This document shows positions 29,918 through 36,495 of a stretch of 64,000 bases of DNA, piece after piece. The translations under genes and the position numbers were made by a program. Source of the stretch: Bacteroidales bacterium (GTDB lineage Bacteria; Bacteroidota; Bacteroidia; Bacteroidales; VadinHA17); assembly GCA_020201035.1 (NCBI GenBank), contig JAIVHO010000036.1:1-64000 (forward strand), written 5' to 3'. The notes under the pieces were generated by a model, which saw nothing but the letters and a program-made list of their open reading frames with translations, was not told the origin of the DNA and ran no database searches. Positions within the stretch are counted from its first letter, which is position 1; the number at the start of each line of letters is the position of its first letter.

Positions 29918-30724
29918 TTATATCAGTCCTGTAAAGAGTGAGTTGAATTTGTCTCCTTGTCTGAGATATCTTATTGGTGAGCAGCCTGAATATTCCCTGA
30001 ATTCATTTATAAAATGGGGAAGATCATAATATCCGTTCAGGTAGGCTATATCCTGCAGGTTCATATCAGACCTCTCCTTAAGCATTGAAAAAGCCCTGTT
30101 AAACCGGATAATCTTTAAAAACTTTTTCGGCGTAAGACCAATATCCTGTTTTATATTTCTTTCAAGTGTGCGTCTTGATGCCCCTGAATTGGCAATAATC
30201 TCACCGTAATTCAGCTTGTCAACAGATAGACAGTGTTTAAGTACGGAGGAGGAGAGTGCATTGATTGAATCACTGTTGATTCTCAGCATCTTTCTGAGAG
30301 TGGTCTCTATTATCCTTACTCTTTCCATATCGTTACCGGCATCGGTTAGTTTATGAAAGAGATATTGATTAAGGCCTGGGTCCACTTCCCCCATATCTGT
30401 TGTTGAATCTGTGAAGCTGCTGCTGTTTACCCTGAAGATTGCACGAAGTGAGTAAGGCATCAGCTTAACACAGAAGCACTGCAGCATTCCGCTGAAGGTA
30501 AGATTTACAGGCCGCGTGATCTGACCTGCAATGAGTGCCAGCGGCACTGAGCCTTTCTCCATGCTGCCTATCTTAATAAGGACAGGATCACCAAACTGGA
30601 ATATCAATTCGGGATATCCGGACGGAGAAATGGATGAAGGCGCCGGATATGGCGTGGTTACTTTCCAGTAGTATTTCACATACGGAATAAGATCGGATGA
30701 GGGTGGGTAGAAATTTACCTGCAT
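29918..30724 (-). CDS. AraC-family transcriptional regulator
   Basis: DNA-binding regulator of 268 residues. The N-terminal ligand-type domain (about 1-150, with YYWKVTTPYPAPSSISPSGY) resembles DUF6597-type AraC sensors. The C-terminal double helix-turn-helix (about 165-260) has GASRRTLERNIKQDIGLTPK and DIAYLNGYYDLPHFINEFRE, then GCSPIRYLR. Its targets are unknown. The gene follows the four-gene kinase/methyltransferase operon after 222 bp on the same strand, and it could be regulated by or respond to that system. Confidence 0.92.
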   Translation of the reverse strand: MQVNFYPPSSDLIPYVKYYWKVTTPYPAPSSISPSGYPELIFQFGDPVLIKIGSMEKGSVPLALIAGQITRPVNLTFSGMLQCFCVKLMPYSLRAIFRVNSSSFTDSTTDMGEVDPGLNQYLFHKLTDAGNDMERVRIIETTLRKMLRINSDSINALSSSVLKHCLSVDKLNYGEIIANSGASRRTLERNIKQDIGLTPKKFLKIIRFNRAFSMLKERSDMNLQDIAYLNGYYDLPHFINEFREYSGCSPIRYLRQGDKFNSLFTGLI

Positions 30725-30946: not shown

Positions 30947-33124
30947 CTATACTTTTTGTATTGATTCTTCTGTTTCGGCAGGCAGTGAAACAAAGAATGT
31001 TGATCCTTTTCCGGGCTCCGAGGTGACCCATATGTTACCTCCCATAAACTCAATATACCCTTTGGAGAGTGAGAGTCCGAGGCCGGTCCCTTCATGTTCA
31101 CGTGTCTTACCACTGTCAACCTGATAGAAACGTTCAAATATTTTCTGTTGCTGGTCTTTATCTATGCCGATACCTGTATCGGTAACGTGAAATTCCAGGG
31201 AGCCCTGTTTAATAAAATATCCGAAGGTTACTGAACCCTTATCGGTGAACTTAAGGGCGTTGCCTATCAGGTTTGTCAGAATCTGTGTTAGCCTGACATT
31301 GTCAACGATATATATTGGCTCTTCATCTGTAGCAGGAACTGAATGTCTCAGCTCCAGTCCTCTCAGGTCTGCGACCGGTTGAAACTGTTTATAGAGATTG
31401 GTTATTACAGTATTAATGTTGGTTTTGGTCTTATTGACATTCATCTTGCCAGCCTCTATATTTGCAATCTCGATAATATCGGTTACTATGGCAAGAAGCT
31501 GGTCGCTGCTCTGGGTAATCAGTTCAAGATAAGCTTTGAAGGATTCAGAATCCAGATCCGGCTCTCTCAGAAGAGATGTAAATCCTACAATACCGTTCAT
31601 CGGGGTTCTTATCTCATGTGATATGTTTTGCAGGAAGGCAGTCTTAAGCCGGTCACTCTCTTCGGCCCTCTCCTTTGACATAATCAAATCATCCTTTACC
31701 TGTTTATGAATTGTAATGTCATGGAAGATCTCAAGCATTGCTTTTTTTCCCTGATACATCATACCGGTATGGTATATATTGAATGTTTTGCCTCCCATTA
31801 AACCGTCCGCTTCCAGTATCTCAGTTTTACCCTCCCTGATTCCTGAAAGCAGGGGGCATCCGGCACACTGCAATTTGTCATCGCGATAGAGATCCCAGCA
31901 TTTTTTTCCGACAGCCTCCTGTCCGAATATCCTGCGATAATTCTCACTTAAAAAGAGAACAGTCCCTTCCTCGTCAATAATATCCATTCCGAAAGGGATA
32001 GTCTTCAGCAGCACATTGTTAAATTCAGCATTGCTCCGTGAAAAGTCCTCTGCTCTTTTACGTTCGGTAATATCATGGCGGATAGTGATCAGTCGTGACG
32101 GCCCCCCATTACTGTTGGGTATCGGTATCCTGCTTGTCTGGTGCCAGTACGTAAAGCCTGTGTCATAATGTGTTCCGCTCTCAATCATATCGAGGCTAAG
32201 ACGGCCTGTCTGCAGCACCTTCTGATCTTCAATGGCTGTTTTTACAGCCTCCTCTTCAGGGAGGAAATCACCCAGTGTTTTTCCTGTTGTCTCGCTCTGT
32301 GATTCAACTCCTATAAAGCTGAGGTGTGCTCTGTTGTTAAGCAGGAATCTTCCCTCATTGTCAGTCAGTGATACCGGATCGGCCAGATTATCAATAAGTG
32401 TACGCAGAAGGTTACGTTCCTCACGGGTAACATTATCATATTTTTTTTCTTCAGCCTGAACATCCTGGTGTAGTCTTTTGCTGTACATAAGCACCAGACT
32501 GTATGTGAGCATAATTATAAGCATATTTACCATAATGATGCTGAAGGAGTCAAAAGGTGCTGCGTTAAAAAAATCCACGGGCATCTCTTTTTCTCCGGTA
32601 ATAAAGTAGATGATATTTATTGCACACACCAGAGAAAATAAGATATATACGATCCCTGCCGTGAGGGTGAGATTCCTGCTTTTTGCAGGCACTCTTCTCA
32701 GCATAAGCCAGGCTGTCTGAGAGGTTATTAACAATCCTGCGACTGAGATACTCAGGTTTCTTGCTTCCAGAGCGGGATTGGCGATTGTAAACCATATCTG
32801 GAAGGCTGTAAATAGTATCAGCACTGCAATATTATGCCATTGGAATGATCTTTTACCTGTAAAATTTTCAAGACCTCTGTGGCCTAAGATAAATCCTGCA
32901 ATAAGAAATGTATTGGCTGCTATAATTGAGATCCAGTCAGGGATTTGTCCTCTCAGCGACACCAGTAACAATGAAACTGTCAGCATTGCAAAGTTTAGGA
33001 CAAGGTAAATTGTCCCCATGTATCTTTTACGATACTGCATCCACAACATAAACACAACGAGAGTACTTACCAGCCCGGTAAATGTAAAGCTCAAGATTAT
33101 GGTGCGAATATCGATAGATACCAT
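30947..33124 (-). CDS. Seven-TM sensor histidine kinase with two PAS domains
   Basis: Membrane sensor kinase of 725 residues. Seven hydrophobic helices fill about residues 5-217, resembling 7TM-type sensor modules. PAS 1 spans about 235-355 (LADPVSLTDNEGRFLLNN). PAS 2 spans about 365-475 and carries a CxxC pair in QCAGCPLL, which could bind metal or sense redox. HisKA has phospho-acceptor His503 in NISHEIRTPMNG. The HATPase has LIGNALKFTDKG, DTGIGID and GTGLGLSLSKG, so all boxes are present. No receiver is attached. It is the fourth gene of the operon with the PhcB-like methyltransferase, hybrid kinase and CheY-like protein, 69 bp after the latter. Confidence 0.93.
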   Translation of the reverse strand: MVSIDIRTIILSFTFTGLVSTLVVFMLWMQYRKRYMGTIYLVLNFAMLTVSLLLVSLRGQIPDWISIIAANTFLIAGFILGHRGLENFTGKRSFQWHNIAVLILFTAFQIWFTIANPALEARNLSISVAGLLITSQTAWLMLRRVPAKSRNLTLTAGIVYILFSLVCAINIIYFITGEKEMPVDFFNAAPFDSFSIIMVNMLIIMLTYSLVLMYSKRLHQDVQAEEKKYDNVTREERNLLRTLIDNLADPVSLTDNEGRFLLNNRAHLSFIGVESQSETTGKTLGDFLPEEEAVKTAIEDQKVLQTGRLSLDMIESGTHYDTGFTYWHQTSRIPIPNSNGGPSRLITIRHDITERKRAEDFSRSNAEFNNVLLKTIPFGMDIIDEEGTVLFLSENYRRIFGQEAVGKKCWDLYRDDKLQCAGCPLLSGIREGKTEILEADGLMGGKTFNIYHTGMMYQGKKAMLEIFHDITIHKQVKDDLIMSKERAEESDRLKTAFLQNISHEIRTPMNGIVGFTSLLREPDLDSESFKAYLELITQSSDQLLAIVTDIIEIANIEAGKMNVNKTKTNINTVITNLYKQFQPVADLRGLELRHSVPATDEEPIYIVDNVRLTQILTNLIGNALKFTDKGSVTFGYFIKQGSLEFHVTDTGIGIDKDQQQKIFERFYQVDSGKTREHEGTGLGLSLSKGYIEFMGGNIWVTSEPGKGSTFFVSLPAETEESIQKV

Positions 33125-33193
33125 TTTCGGTTTCTCCTGTTTATTTAAATATTTGTGGTAAGCTTTACTATTATCCTGTAATGCCTCTCCGGA

Positions 33194-33574
33194 TTATTTC
33201 TGATTTTCTTCATTCAATAATCCGGTTATACTGGCCATAAACTCTTTAAGATCCAGGGGTTTTTGAAAAGCCAGGTCTGCCCCCAGATGTTTTGCGCTTT
33301 TGAGGTACCCTTCATACTGGAAGCGGCCTCCGCCGGATATAGCCACAATTTTAAGGTTTGGATTTTTACGTCTCAGATCAAAGATGATTTCAAGGCCCTC
33401 TTTTTCAGGCATAACTATATCCGTAATCAGCAGATCAGGATTAAAAGTGTCAAACACCTCCATACCCTCTTTACCGTTAACTGCAATTTCAACCATATGA
33501 CCTGATTTTTCCACCAATCTTTTCAGCATCATGGCTATTGCTGTTTCGTCGTCAATAATAAGAATTTTCGCCAT
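33194..33574 (-). CDS. Single-domain response regulator (CheY-like)
   Basis: Receiver domain only, 126 residues. The acidic pocket Asp8-Asp9 (IIDDE), the phospho-acceptor Asp52 in LLITDIVMP and the FQKPL lysine are all present. There is no DNA-binding output, so it must act by protein contact or as a phosphate relay between the two kinases that flank it. It starts 23 bp after the hybrid kinase and ends 69 bp before the PAS kinase. Confidence 0.95.
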   Translation of the reverse strand: MAKILIIDDETAIAMMLKRLVEKSGHMVEIAVNGKEGMEVFDTFNPDLLITDIVMPEKEGLEIIFDLRRKNPNLKIVAISGGGRFQYEGYLKSAKHLGADLAFQKPLDLKEFMASITGLLNEENQK

Positions 33575-33597
33575 ATGACAGTGTCTCTTTTATTCTG

Positions 33598-35562
33598 TTA
33601 ATTCTCATCTAAAACTTTTCTGATCACCTTGCTGAAATCACTAAGTATTAAGGGCTTCATTATGATTTCAGAAATTCCGTGCTTCTCCTTCATCTCCTCG
33701 GAGATGGTATCAATATATCCGGTAATTACAATAACCTTGAGTTCGGGCCGTATCAGCCTCATCTCATCAGCAAGCTCTGTTCCGAACAGTTTTGGCATTG
33801 TAAGGTCAGTCACCAGCAATGAATATTTCATGGGATTTTCCCTGAACTCCTCCAGTGCAGAAAGGCTGTCAGTTTTAATGGTAACCCTGTAGCCAAGGTT
33901 CTCAAGCATCTTTTTACCCATATAGGTAATCTCCTGTTCATCATCAACAAACAGTATATACTCATTACCCTTTGTAACTGTTTTATTCAGTTCTTCCAGG
34001 CTAGCCGGTTTGGTTCCGTGTTGAGGAAGATAAATGGTGAACAGTGTTCCCTGACCGGGGGTGCTGTCAACAGTGATTGCACCTCCGTAATTGTTTACTA
34101 TTCCGTGCACAACTGATAGCCCGAGTCCGGAACCAGAACCAACCTCCTTCCGGGTAAAGAAGGGCTCAAATATCCTCTCTCTGGTTTTACTGTCCATTCC
34201 GTGGCCGGTATCTGAGATGGCCAGTTTGATGTACTTTCCGGTTTTCAGGTTTGGAACCTTCGTCACCAGACTCTTTGTTACGTTTATTACATCCAGACTC
34301 ACTTCCAGAACACCTCCGGTCTGTATCATTGCAAAGCTGGCGTTTGTGCACAGGTTCATTATGATCTGGTGCATGTGGGTAGCATCGGCAAGTATCGTTC
34401 CTGTTTCCGGATCCAGCTTCTGTCTCACCTCAATGCCTGGAGGAAATGACCCTTTCAGGAGGTTCAGTACCTCAACCACCACATTGTTCAGTTCTATCGG
34501 TTTTTTCTCAAAATTAACCTCTCTGCTGAAGGTGAGAATTTGCTGCACAAGGTCTTTGCCCCTGATAGCTGCGTTGTTAATCTGCTCAAGATCAAATTTA
34601 AGGGTGCTTTCATCAGGCAGCTCCTCAAGTGCCATATCTGTATAACCGAGGATGGGAGTAAGGATATTGTTGAAGTCATGGGCAATGCCACCGGCAAGAG
34701 TTCCTATTGTTTCCATCTTTTTTAACTGGAATAGCTGGGTCTCAAGTTCAGCACGTTCCTTCTCATACTTCTTACGCGTTTCTATCTCCTTCTTCAGGTT
34801 CTGGTTTACCGTGGTAAGCTGTTGGGTTCTCTCTCTCACCCTTTTTTCGAGAGCATTGTTGGCGTTCTGCACATTTTCCTGCTCATGCTGCAGCAGCAGT
34901 CTCATATAGAAATCGTTTCGTGATGAGAGCTCCAGAAAGTAGCTGATAAACATCCCTATAATATTGGCGCTGATAAAGAAGTAATTGTTGTTGACAAGGA
35001 TCTCCATTGGCGTGTCAGATATCCATATAGCAGAAATCTCATATGTTATCACGATCAGCCATCCGGATACTGAGGCATATATAAACCGGGCCCTGATAAA
35101 CGTGTATCCGAAGATAAATATCAGTATAAGACCGGCATAATAGGAGTAGTTTGATACTCTTGCAGCCAGAATAATCATTATAATGATCCCGAATCCGGTC
35201 AGGAACATAATAAATGATATTATAGGCTGCATGTACTTTTTAAAAAGGTTTGAGAAAGAGAATGCAAATACTGCAATAAGCACAGGGTAAACAATGCCAA
35301 AGCGGATAAGCCAGAATACCTCCTTTAGCTGTGGTACCGATATTGCATCAAGGAATGCAAATGCACCGTAAAAGATCATTGCCAGAATAAGGGAGAACCG
35401 GAACGGGGTCAGTGATTTTTCAAAGTTATCAGCAAGATAGTCCTTCTCGTATTTTGCCAGGTCCCCGGTAAATGATAGAGTTAGCCTGTCAAGAGTCAGT
35501 GATCCCGGGGTATGTGAAGGTAACCCCAGCAAGTTTGTCATTGATCCACCGAAGACTCTCAT
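33598..35562 (-). CDS. Six-TM hybrid histidine kinase with C-terminal receiver
   Basis: Membrane sensor kinase of 654 residues. A hydrophobic sensor with about six helices (about 55-212) has signature [20 protein letters not shown]; the same sort of domain occurs in front of some adenylate cyclases. A coiled coil follows (about 222-285). HisKA carries His295 in [13 protein letters not shown], and the HATPase has DTGHGMD and [12 protein letters not shown] receiver lies at about 534-654 with Asp586 in LLVTDLTMP. In Ralstonia, PhcS is a multi-TM kinase that senses a fatty-acid methyl ester beside PhcB; here the kinase starts 27 bp after a PhcB-like gene. Ligand sensing is therefore an inference from gene order. 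Confidence 0.93.
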
Positions 35563-35589
35563 ATTCCAGGATTAAAGATGGTTAATAGT

Positions 35590-36495
35590 TTAGTCAGCCT
35601 CTCTTTTGATTCTGAGAAAGAGGTTTACACCAAGGGGTTCTGTTTCAACAGTGACATACCGCTCACCAATCCCTGCCTCACCGGCTATACGCAGAAGATC
35701 CTCCTTACTCCGGTGATTCAGGTACCATTCTGACAGCACTTCCATTAACCTTCGTGTAGGGTTTTCAGTGCTGAAATTGCTTATTATATAGTCACCTTCG
35801 TCGGCAAGGAAGTTTATGTATTTCTTTATCAGGAAGATAAAGTGTTTGTCCCTGAAATAGTCGAACAGTCCTGCACTCCATATAAGATCATATACCTTAA
35901 ATGGTTTAAACCGGAGTACATTGATCCTGTTGTATGATATCTGGCCATTGAACTTTTCATTCTGCCGCCTGGAAAAGTCTATTGCATTCTGGTCAAAATC
36001 GATAAGATCAAAGGAGATATGTTTCTCAGGTTTACTGTCTAAAAATTCATATACGTCGGTTGCCGGACCAGAGCCAAGGATTAAAACGTTTATATCCTTT
36101 TCTTTTTTGGCGGCAAGATCATTACAGTAGTTCAGAAAATACTCTTTCCTGTTCCTTACGGCTACCGCTCCGGCCTGATTCTGAAAAAAGATATCCCAGT
36201 TTTGATATTCCTTGTTCCCGTTTACGTGGAAGTCATAAATATTGTTGATCAGATTAAAATCGCCAGGATATCCGAAGGGTTTTTTCAGTCCGTACCCGAT
36301 TAATGTATTCTCATTTAACATGGGAGCCAGTAACTCCCTCAATTGATCAACCTGTGAAGGATCAAGGTTATTCACAATGGATGTGAACGTTTCATATTCA
36401 TGAAGCTCGGGGCCTCCCTTTTGAATAAGTTTTTCAAGAAATACCTTTTTTTCAGCCTCAATTATAGCCGTTGGTGCGAATAGGTTATCCGACAT
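35590..36495 (-). CDS. PhcB-like SAM-dependent methyltransferase
   Basis: Rossmann-type class I methyltransferase of 301 residues. Residues 1-110 form a helical N-terminal domain with KKPFGYPGDF (71-80) followed by NLINNIY. As I remember them, proteins annotated as 3-hydroxypalmitate methyl ester synthases (PhcB) have a similar G-Y-x-G-D-x-x-x-x-N/M motif. The SAM site is VLILGSGPATDVYE (137-150), with an acidic strand end in FDLIDFDQNAIDFS. The end of the protein contains a GDYIISNFS strand. It is first in a four-gene operon with two kinases and a receiver, which is the phcBSR-like context. The alternative is a methyltransferase acting on a different small molecule or protein. The product is unproven. 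Confidence 0.75.
   Translation of the reverse strand: MSDNLFAPTAIIEAEKKVFLEKLIQKGGPELHEYETFTSIVNNLDPSQVDQLRELLAPMLNENTLIGYGLKKPFGYPGDFNLINNIYDFHVNGNKEYQNWDIFFQNQAGAVAVRNRKEYFLNYCNDLAAKKEKDINVLILGSGPATDVYEFLDSKPEKHISFDLIDFDQNAIDFSRRQNEKFNGQISYNRINVLRFKPFKVYDLIWSAGLFDYFRDKHFIFLIKKYINFLADEGDYIISNFSTENPTRRLMEVLSEWYLNHRSKEDLLRIAGEAGIGERYVTVETEPLGVNLFLRIKREAD

Follow-up and report, generated by a model that had tools for sequence, protein, structure and literature searches.

Genes at the locus

Within a stretch of 64,000 nucleotides from a Bacteroidales bacterium (part of contig 40 in a draft genome of 2.83 Mb; "the window" below means this whole stretch), we examined a putative operon of four open reading frames (ORFs), all carried by the minus strand and separated by intergenic gaps of 27, 23 and 69 bp. 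The first three genes encode an S-adenosylmethionine (SAM)-dependent methyltransferase (MT), a hybrid kinase with a sensor domain of six transmembrane (6TM) helices, and a lone receiver, and together they are a conserved three-gene unit in Bacteroidota. Recurrence of the MT and the 6TM sensor as a pair in other bacterial groups suggests that this cassette probably makes and senses a fat-like signal of its own. The genes and domains are as follows:

35590..36495, minus strand: gene 1, SAM-dependent MT, candidate ligand synthase, 301 aa (Pfam, ORF, model)
33598..35562, minus strand: gene 2, hybrid sensor kinase, 654 aa, with 6TM sensor, HisKA (His295), HATPase_c and receiver (Asp586)
34903..35466, minus strand: 6TM sensor domain of gene 2, residues about 33-220, predicted adenylyl-cyclase/ImcA fold
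33625..33957, minus strand: C-terminal receiver domain of the hybrid kinase (Pfam)
33194..33574, minus strand: gene 3, lone CheY-like receiver, 126 aa, Asp52, without output domain (Pfam)
30947..33124, minus strand: gene 4, PAS sensor kinase, 725 aa, a neighbour outside the conserved cassette (Pfam)

Pfam returned a weak class I MT match for gene 1, HisKA, HATPase_c and Response_reg for gene 2, a single Response_reg for gene 3, and PAS_4, HisKA and HATPase_c for gene 4, matching the domain assignments that an earlier note had made from the sequence. The four co-directional genes and the gaps described in that note agree with our coordinates, both motifs that it had read in the MT (KKPFGYPGDF and GSGPATD) are found there, and the phospho-sites His295, Asp586, Asp52 and His503 all lie at the positions claimed. 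The CxxC to which it had drawn attention in the PAS kinase is located at residues 420-423, although such a motif within a PAS domain is not distinctive. The underlying observation is therefore correct; the parallel drawn in the note with the Phc signalling system of Ralstonia holds in part, and the second kinase stands outside the system, as described below. Close relatives by MT sequence bear the title Bacteroidales. Scans for sigma-70 promoters and terminators gave no excess of sites over shuffled sequence, and a search of the operon's intergenic gaps for the promoter motif TAnnTTTG gave no match.

Conservation of the cassette in Bacteroidota

To survey the gene neighbourhood, the best 80 matches of an MT scan over the contigs of named genomes (nearly all Bacteroidota by title, the host genomes being mostly uncultured drafts) were taken as MT loci, and an MT was counted as paired when a kinase with the same 6TM sensor was encoded on the same strand no more than five genes away. 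By this definition the MT is paired in 71 of the 80 loci, and the remaining 9 end at contig edges near the MT. Relatives from the same family and the same order carry the unit as MT, hybrid kinase and lone receiver. The 71 paired loci fall into three layouts. Type 1, that of the window (44 loci), has the MT followed by the 6TM hybrid kinase; in all but one of the loci where the contig continues, a lone receiver comes third. Type 2 comprises 24 loci, several of them under the titles Prolixibacteraceae or Draconibacterium, and begins with the 6TM kinase and ends with the MT; the genes in between, whose domains were assigned by Pfam on one representative, encode a lone receiver (sometimes), a protein of roughly 350 aa with receiver, HisKA_2 and HATPase domains, and a receiver-LytTR regulator. 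Type 3 (3 loci) has the 6TM hybrid kinase followed by the MT. The conserved operon order anticipated in the earlier note is thus upheld for genes 1-3 and fails for gene 4.

Co-occurrence at the genome level points the same way. In a set of 60 relatives, the MT occurs in 20 genomes and the 6TM domain in 24, the latter including every one of the 20 MT genomes (Fisher p=2.5e-12, uncorrected for shared ancestry), and among 198 genomes of the order the MT is present in 12, with the 6TM domain also in 11 of these. In type 1 loci, MT divergence correlates with sensor divergence at r=0.94, and sensor divergence with that of the sensor's own kinase core at r=0.86; since shared ancestry lifts all such values, we regard this co-divergence as no more than suggestive. 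One genome (G305, L158:6210-8528) retains the hybrid kinase and lone receiver without an MT, a possible solo receptor.

The pair outside Bacteroidota

Homologues of the MT are also found on plasmids of other bacteria, and their neighbours were searched with a hidden Markov model (HMM) built from the Bacteroidota 6TM domains only. This HMM matched the kinase adjoining the MT on a plasmid of Pseudanabaena sp. PCC 7367 (E=2.7e-27) and on that of Paraburkholderia graminis PHS1 (E=2.2e-15). In a further set of 12, mostly rhizobial, loci, the HMM matched the 6TM domain at 9, in a long protein encoded divergently from the adjoining MT, and the Rhizobium etli CFN 42 protein, matched after profile iteration, brings the count to 10 of 12. 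The two of these long proteins examined by Pfam are both GGDEF-EAL proteins. A profile-profile comparison of the two sensor sets gave E=5.4e-16 over 199 columns, and no other membrane protein in the fetched loci matched the 6TM HMM at E<0.01. The MT-6TM pair is carried by the laboratory strains R. etli CFN 42, where the MT is RHE_RS24565 and the GGDEF-EAL protein RHE_RS24570, and R. johnstonii 3841, while the MT of Aureimonas and that of one Rhizobium locus have no 6TM partner. Since the pair occurs with differing outputs across these groups, the recurrent element is the MT plus the 6TM receptor, with the output domain exchanged. This recurrence outside Bacteroidota is the broader result of the analysis.

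The methyltransferase

The MT family is recognized by the signature KPxGYxGD, NR, GSGP, WSAGLFDYF, NF..NP and EPLGvNLF. In 27 sequences drawn from several families of the phylum, the positions that do not vary include KPxGYxGD (72-79), Asn115-Arg116, Gly143-Pro144, Asp168, Ser207, Gly209, Asp212-Tyr213, Asn240-Phe241 and Asn291-Leu-Phe293. The predicted structure of the MT is confident (mean predicted local distance difference test score, pLDDT, 93.8), and its best fold match is an uncharacterised Bordetella protein (3ocj), followed by many small-molecule O-methyltransferases. Sequence-profile searches retrieved generic MT families only, no NCBIfam model matches the MT, and a PDB search with the single MT sequence gave no useful match. 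Due to these non-committal fold and profile matches, the substrate is not fixed by homology. A hint of a fatty-acyl substrate for the family comes from a Deinococcus actinosclerus plasmid (L162:3392-6750), where genes for a fatty acid desaturase, a FeeM-like N-acyl amino acid synthase, a methyltransferase and an MT homologue stand in a row. In another locus (L071:5541-6998), the MT-family protein is fused at its N-terminus to a cyclic-nucleotide-binding domain.

The 6TM sensor domain

Structure prediction, which the earlier note had proposed for the sensor domains, gives for the N-terminus of gene 2 a membrane helix bundle running into a long signalling helix. No Pfam family matches the 6TM domain of the window kinase above cut-off; those of its relatives give weak matches to AC_N, which covers the membrane region of adenylyl cyclases (best 6.3e-5), and a profile of 40 relatives searched against the PDB retrieved a diguanylate cyclase (8wcn, E=0.0013) and adenylyl cyclase 5 (E=0.012). 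With the AlphaFold model of the sensor (pLDDT 82.8), the top Foldseek match was again 8wcn, ImcA (E=7.8e-4, probability 1.00), with adenylyl cyclase 9 chains next and weaker. We therefore consider the predicted similarity to class III cyclase membrane domains to be modest for the cyclases and stronger for ImcA. The window domain would have its fold in common with the class III adenylyl cyclases and ImcA, with weak sequence-profile similarity; it differs from them in that its output is a histidine kinase and in that the receptor gene adjoins that of a candidate ligand-making enzyme.

The mammalian adenylyl cyclase membrane domains respond to lipids (PMC11606603), and the 6TM part of CqsS can substitute for that of an adenylyl cyclase, conferring regulation by CAI-1 (PMC4821796). 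As both kinds of membrane domain answer lipophilic ligands, a lipophilic ligand is the natural guess, by analogy, for the 6TM domain described here. The quorum sensors CqsS and LqsS (for CAI-1 and LAI-1) likewise join a 6TM sensor to a kinase, to which CqsS adds a receiver, and their ligands are lipophilic. In contrast to these systems, the conserved neighbour of the window kinase is a methyltransferase, and no CqsA/LqsA-type synthase is adjacent to it. CqsA and LqsA, the latter named in the earlier note for comparison with the MT by HMM search, are pyridoxal phosphate-dependent synthases and not methyltransferases.

Relation to the Phc system

Quorum sensing through methyl esters has been described in Ralstonia and a small number of relatives, and the signals of the Phc system are 3-hydroxy fatty acid methyl esters. 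Accessions given for PhcB and PhcS are WP_011002642.1 and WP_072633512.1 (PMC10653808). The published proteins measure 464-468 aa (PhcB), 368-374 aa (PhcR) and 336-337 aa (PhcQ) (PMC8578825), PhcS is phosphorylated at His230 (PMC11960443), and the functional residues Arg22 of PhcB and Arg154 of PhcQ are kept in Paraburkholderia homologues (PMC6989110). The P. graminis plasmid operon introduced above encodes proteins of 468, 445, 134 and 344 aa; the first has Arg22, the second has the conserved His at position 233, and the fourth has Arg157. Because its products agree with published PhcB, PhcS and PhcQ in length and in key residues, this operon is probably Phc-type, although a receiver of 134 aa takes the place of the PhcR of Ralstonia. 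Over 260 aa the window MT shares 30% identity with the P. graminis MT, in an alignment that covers the C-terminal part of the 468-aa protein only, and the sensor domain of the window kinase is homologous to that of the P. graminis kinase; the window pair is tied to Phc through its homology to this one proxy operon.

As in Phc, the MT gene heads the window operon, and genes for a multi-TM kinase and for a receiver protein lacking a DNA-binding domain come after it. Nevertheless, the operon departs from Phc in several ways: its 301-aa MT lacks the N-terminal extension of PhcB, which contains Arg22; its kinase, unlike PhcS, bears a receiver, with the phospho-His at 295; its regulator has 126 aa against about 336 aa for PhcQ; and it has no counterpart of PhcR, a soluble protein with receiver and histidine kinase, although type 2 relatives do have their receiver-HisKA_2-HATPase protein. 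The PhcB-like parallel proposed in the earlier note accordingly holds insofar as MT and multi-TM kinase form a conserved pair with a PhcB/PhcS-like layout and the MT is homologous to that of the P. graminis operon, and it breaks down over the missing PhcB extension, the receiver on gene 2 and the want of any PhcR- or PhcQ-like protein. Several features that define Phc are missing from the window operon; it may be a functional analogue of Phc and not a member of that system. No Ralstonia record was among the matches listed in the plasmid MT searches, and our searches of the open-licence literature found no report of a PhcB-like system in Bacteroidota.

Proposed mechanism and alternatives

We propose that genes 1-3 form a synthase-receptor-regulator cassette in which the MT makes a lipophilic methylated ligand that is sensed by the 6TM kinase, and we give this reading a probability of about 0.58. 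The MT would methylate a fatty-acyl-type molecule, likeliest a carboxylate converted to a methyl ester as by PhcB, with a fatty acid methyl ester as the leading product candidate through the Phc parallel. Being lipophilic, the product would partition into membranes and could move between cells. The sensor fold and the gene pairing suggest that the ligand would be bound in the membrane by the 6TM domain and would alter, in one direction or the other, kinase activity at His295. Phosphate would then pass to Asp586, to Asp52 of the lone receiver, or to both. As this receiver has no output domain, the final effector is presumably a partner encoded elsewhere; in type 2 relatives a LytTR regulator lies within the operon itself.

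Several observations weigh against this reading. Neither the folds nor the profiles matched by the MT point to fatty acids, no examined member of the MT family has a known substrate or product, and the Phc comparison runs through the P. graminis proxy and not through Ralstonia PhcB and PhcS themselves. In the Foldseek search, the adenylyl cyclase 9 chains that came next after ImcA had probabilities of 0.84-1.00 but E values of 0.2-1.1. The 6TM domain is common without the MT (11 of the 186 MT-less genomes of the order), and in two genomes at the order level (G415 and G488) the MT lies apart from any 6TM gene; by the order-level and relative-level counts, the receptor often occurs without the enzyme and the enzyme seldom without the receptor. 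Finally, the MT of one family (f18; L063, L064, L065, L066, L072 and L073) adjoins hybrid kinases with a different multi-TM domain. That these kinases share the sensor domain of the window was ruled out by hhalign; their sensor may resemble those of the CqsS/LqsS type.

The pairing and the fold evidence would also fit if the MT modified an intracellular membrane lipid or precursor and the 6TM kinase monitored that pool, giving an internal feedback with no cell-to-cell signalling. No exporter is constant in the cassette, and the lone receiver has no DNA-binding output, both of which suit such a feedback; we nevertheless consider it rather unlikely, because the parallel with Phc via the P. graminis operon favours a diffusible ester, and an exporter may be dispensable for fatty acid methyl esters. 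It is less likely still that the MT serves ordinary metabolism and that its gene is tied to the two-component genes only through regulation by them or through common descent. The generic profile matches and the solo MTs of G415, G488, Aureimonas and one Rhizobium locus are what an ordinary enzyme would give, but the pair persists through three gene orders in Bacteroidota and reappears in other phyla together with another type of kinase or a cyclic di-GMP (c-di-GMP) enzyme. Recurrence across orders, phyla and outputs is not easily explained by shared descent of one operon.

Least probable, and in our view very much so, is that the MT is a CheR-like adaptation enzyme methylating the sensor protein. 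The CheR profile was weakly matched in 35 of 49 MT relatives (best 8.8e-5), the MT-family protein of the Deinococcus row is annotated as CheR, and linker residues including Glu239 are conserved among Bacteroidota sensors. However, the window MT itself has no Pfam match to CheR at E<0.1 and so is not assigned that domain, and CheR is absent among the 50 best fold matches listed, which are dominated by small-molecule O-methyltransferases. Moreover, the partner proteins have only the 6TM domain in common, their cytoplasmic parts being either kinase or GGDEF-EAL.

Going beyond the synthase-receptor-regulator reading of the window cassette, we tentatively suggest, at somewhat less than even odds, that the MT and the adenylyl-cyclase-type 6TM receptor form a portable cross-phylum module of which Ralstonia Phc is one branch, and whose exchangeable outputs would be a hybrid kinase, a plain kinase or a GGDEF-EAL enzyme. 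The reach of the enzyme-receptor pair would thereby widen to Bacteroidota, Cyanobacteriota and rhizobia, with c-di-GMP enzymes among the outputs coupled to it directly. On this view the MT gene would mark the natural ligand class of orphan 6TM receptors related to adenylyl cyclase membrane domains, offering a genetic handle on what such bacterial receptors sense: wherever a receptor gene lies beside an MT gene, the MT product would be the first ligand candidate.

Neighbouring genes and further observations

The PAS kinase (gene 4), which the earlier note had put forward as a new element of the system, is particular to the window genome. None of the 19 other MT-bearing genomes in the set of 60 relatives has a match to its TM/PAS region at E<=1e-20, and no same-strand kinase of the PAS type follows any other type 1 cassette, one locus having an unrelated kinase of 1201 aa. 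As it is not conserved with the cassette, we rejected it as a member of the system. Downstream of it on the same strand (29918-30724) lies an AraC-family regulator with an N-terminal DUF6597 domain.

On plasmid 2 of Paraburkholderia caribensis (L167:5921-9562), a 3-oxoacyl-ACP synthase III-like gene immediately precedes the gene of a hybrid kinase with a membrane domain similar to those of the f18-family kinases beside MT genes. This is possibly another lipid-signal synthase paired with a sensor.

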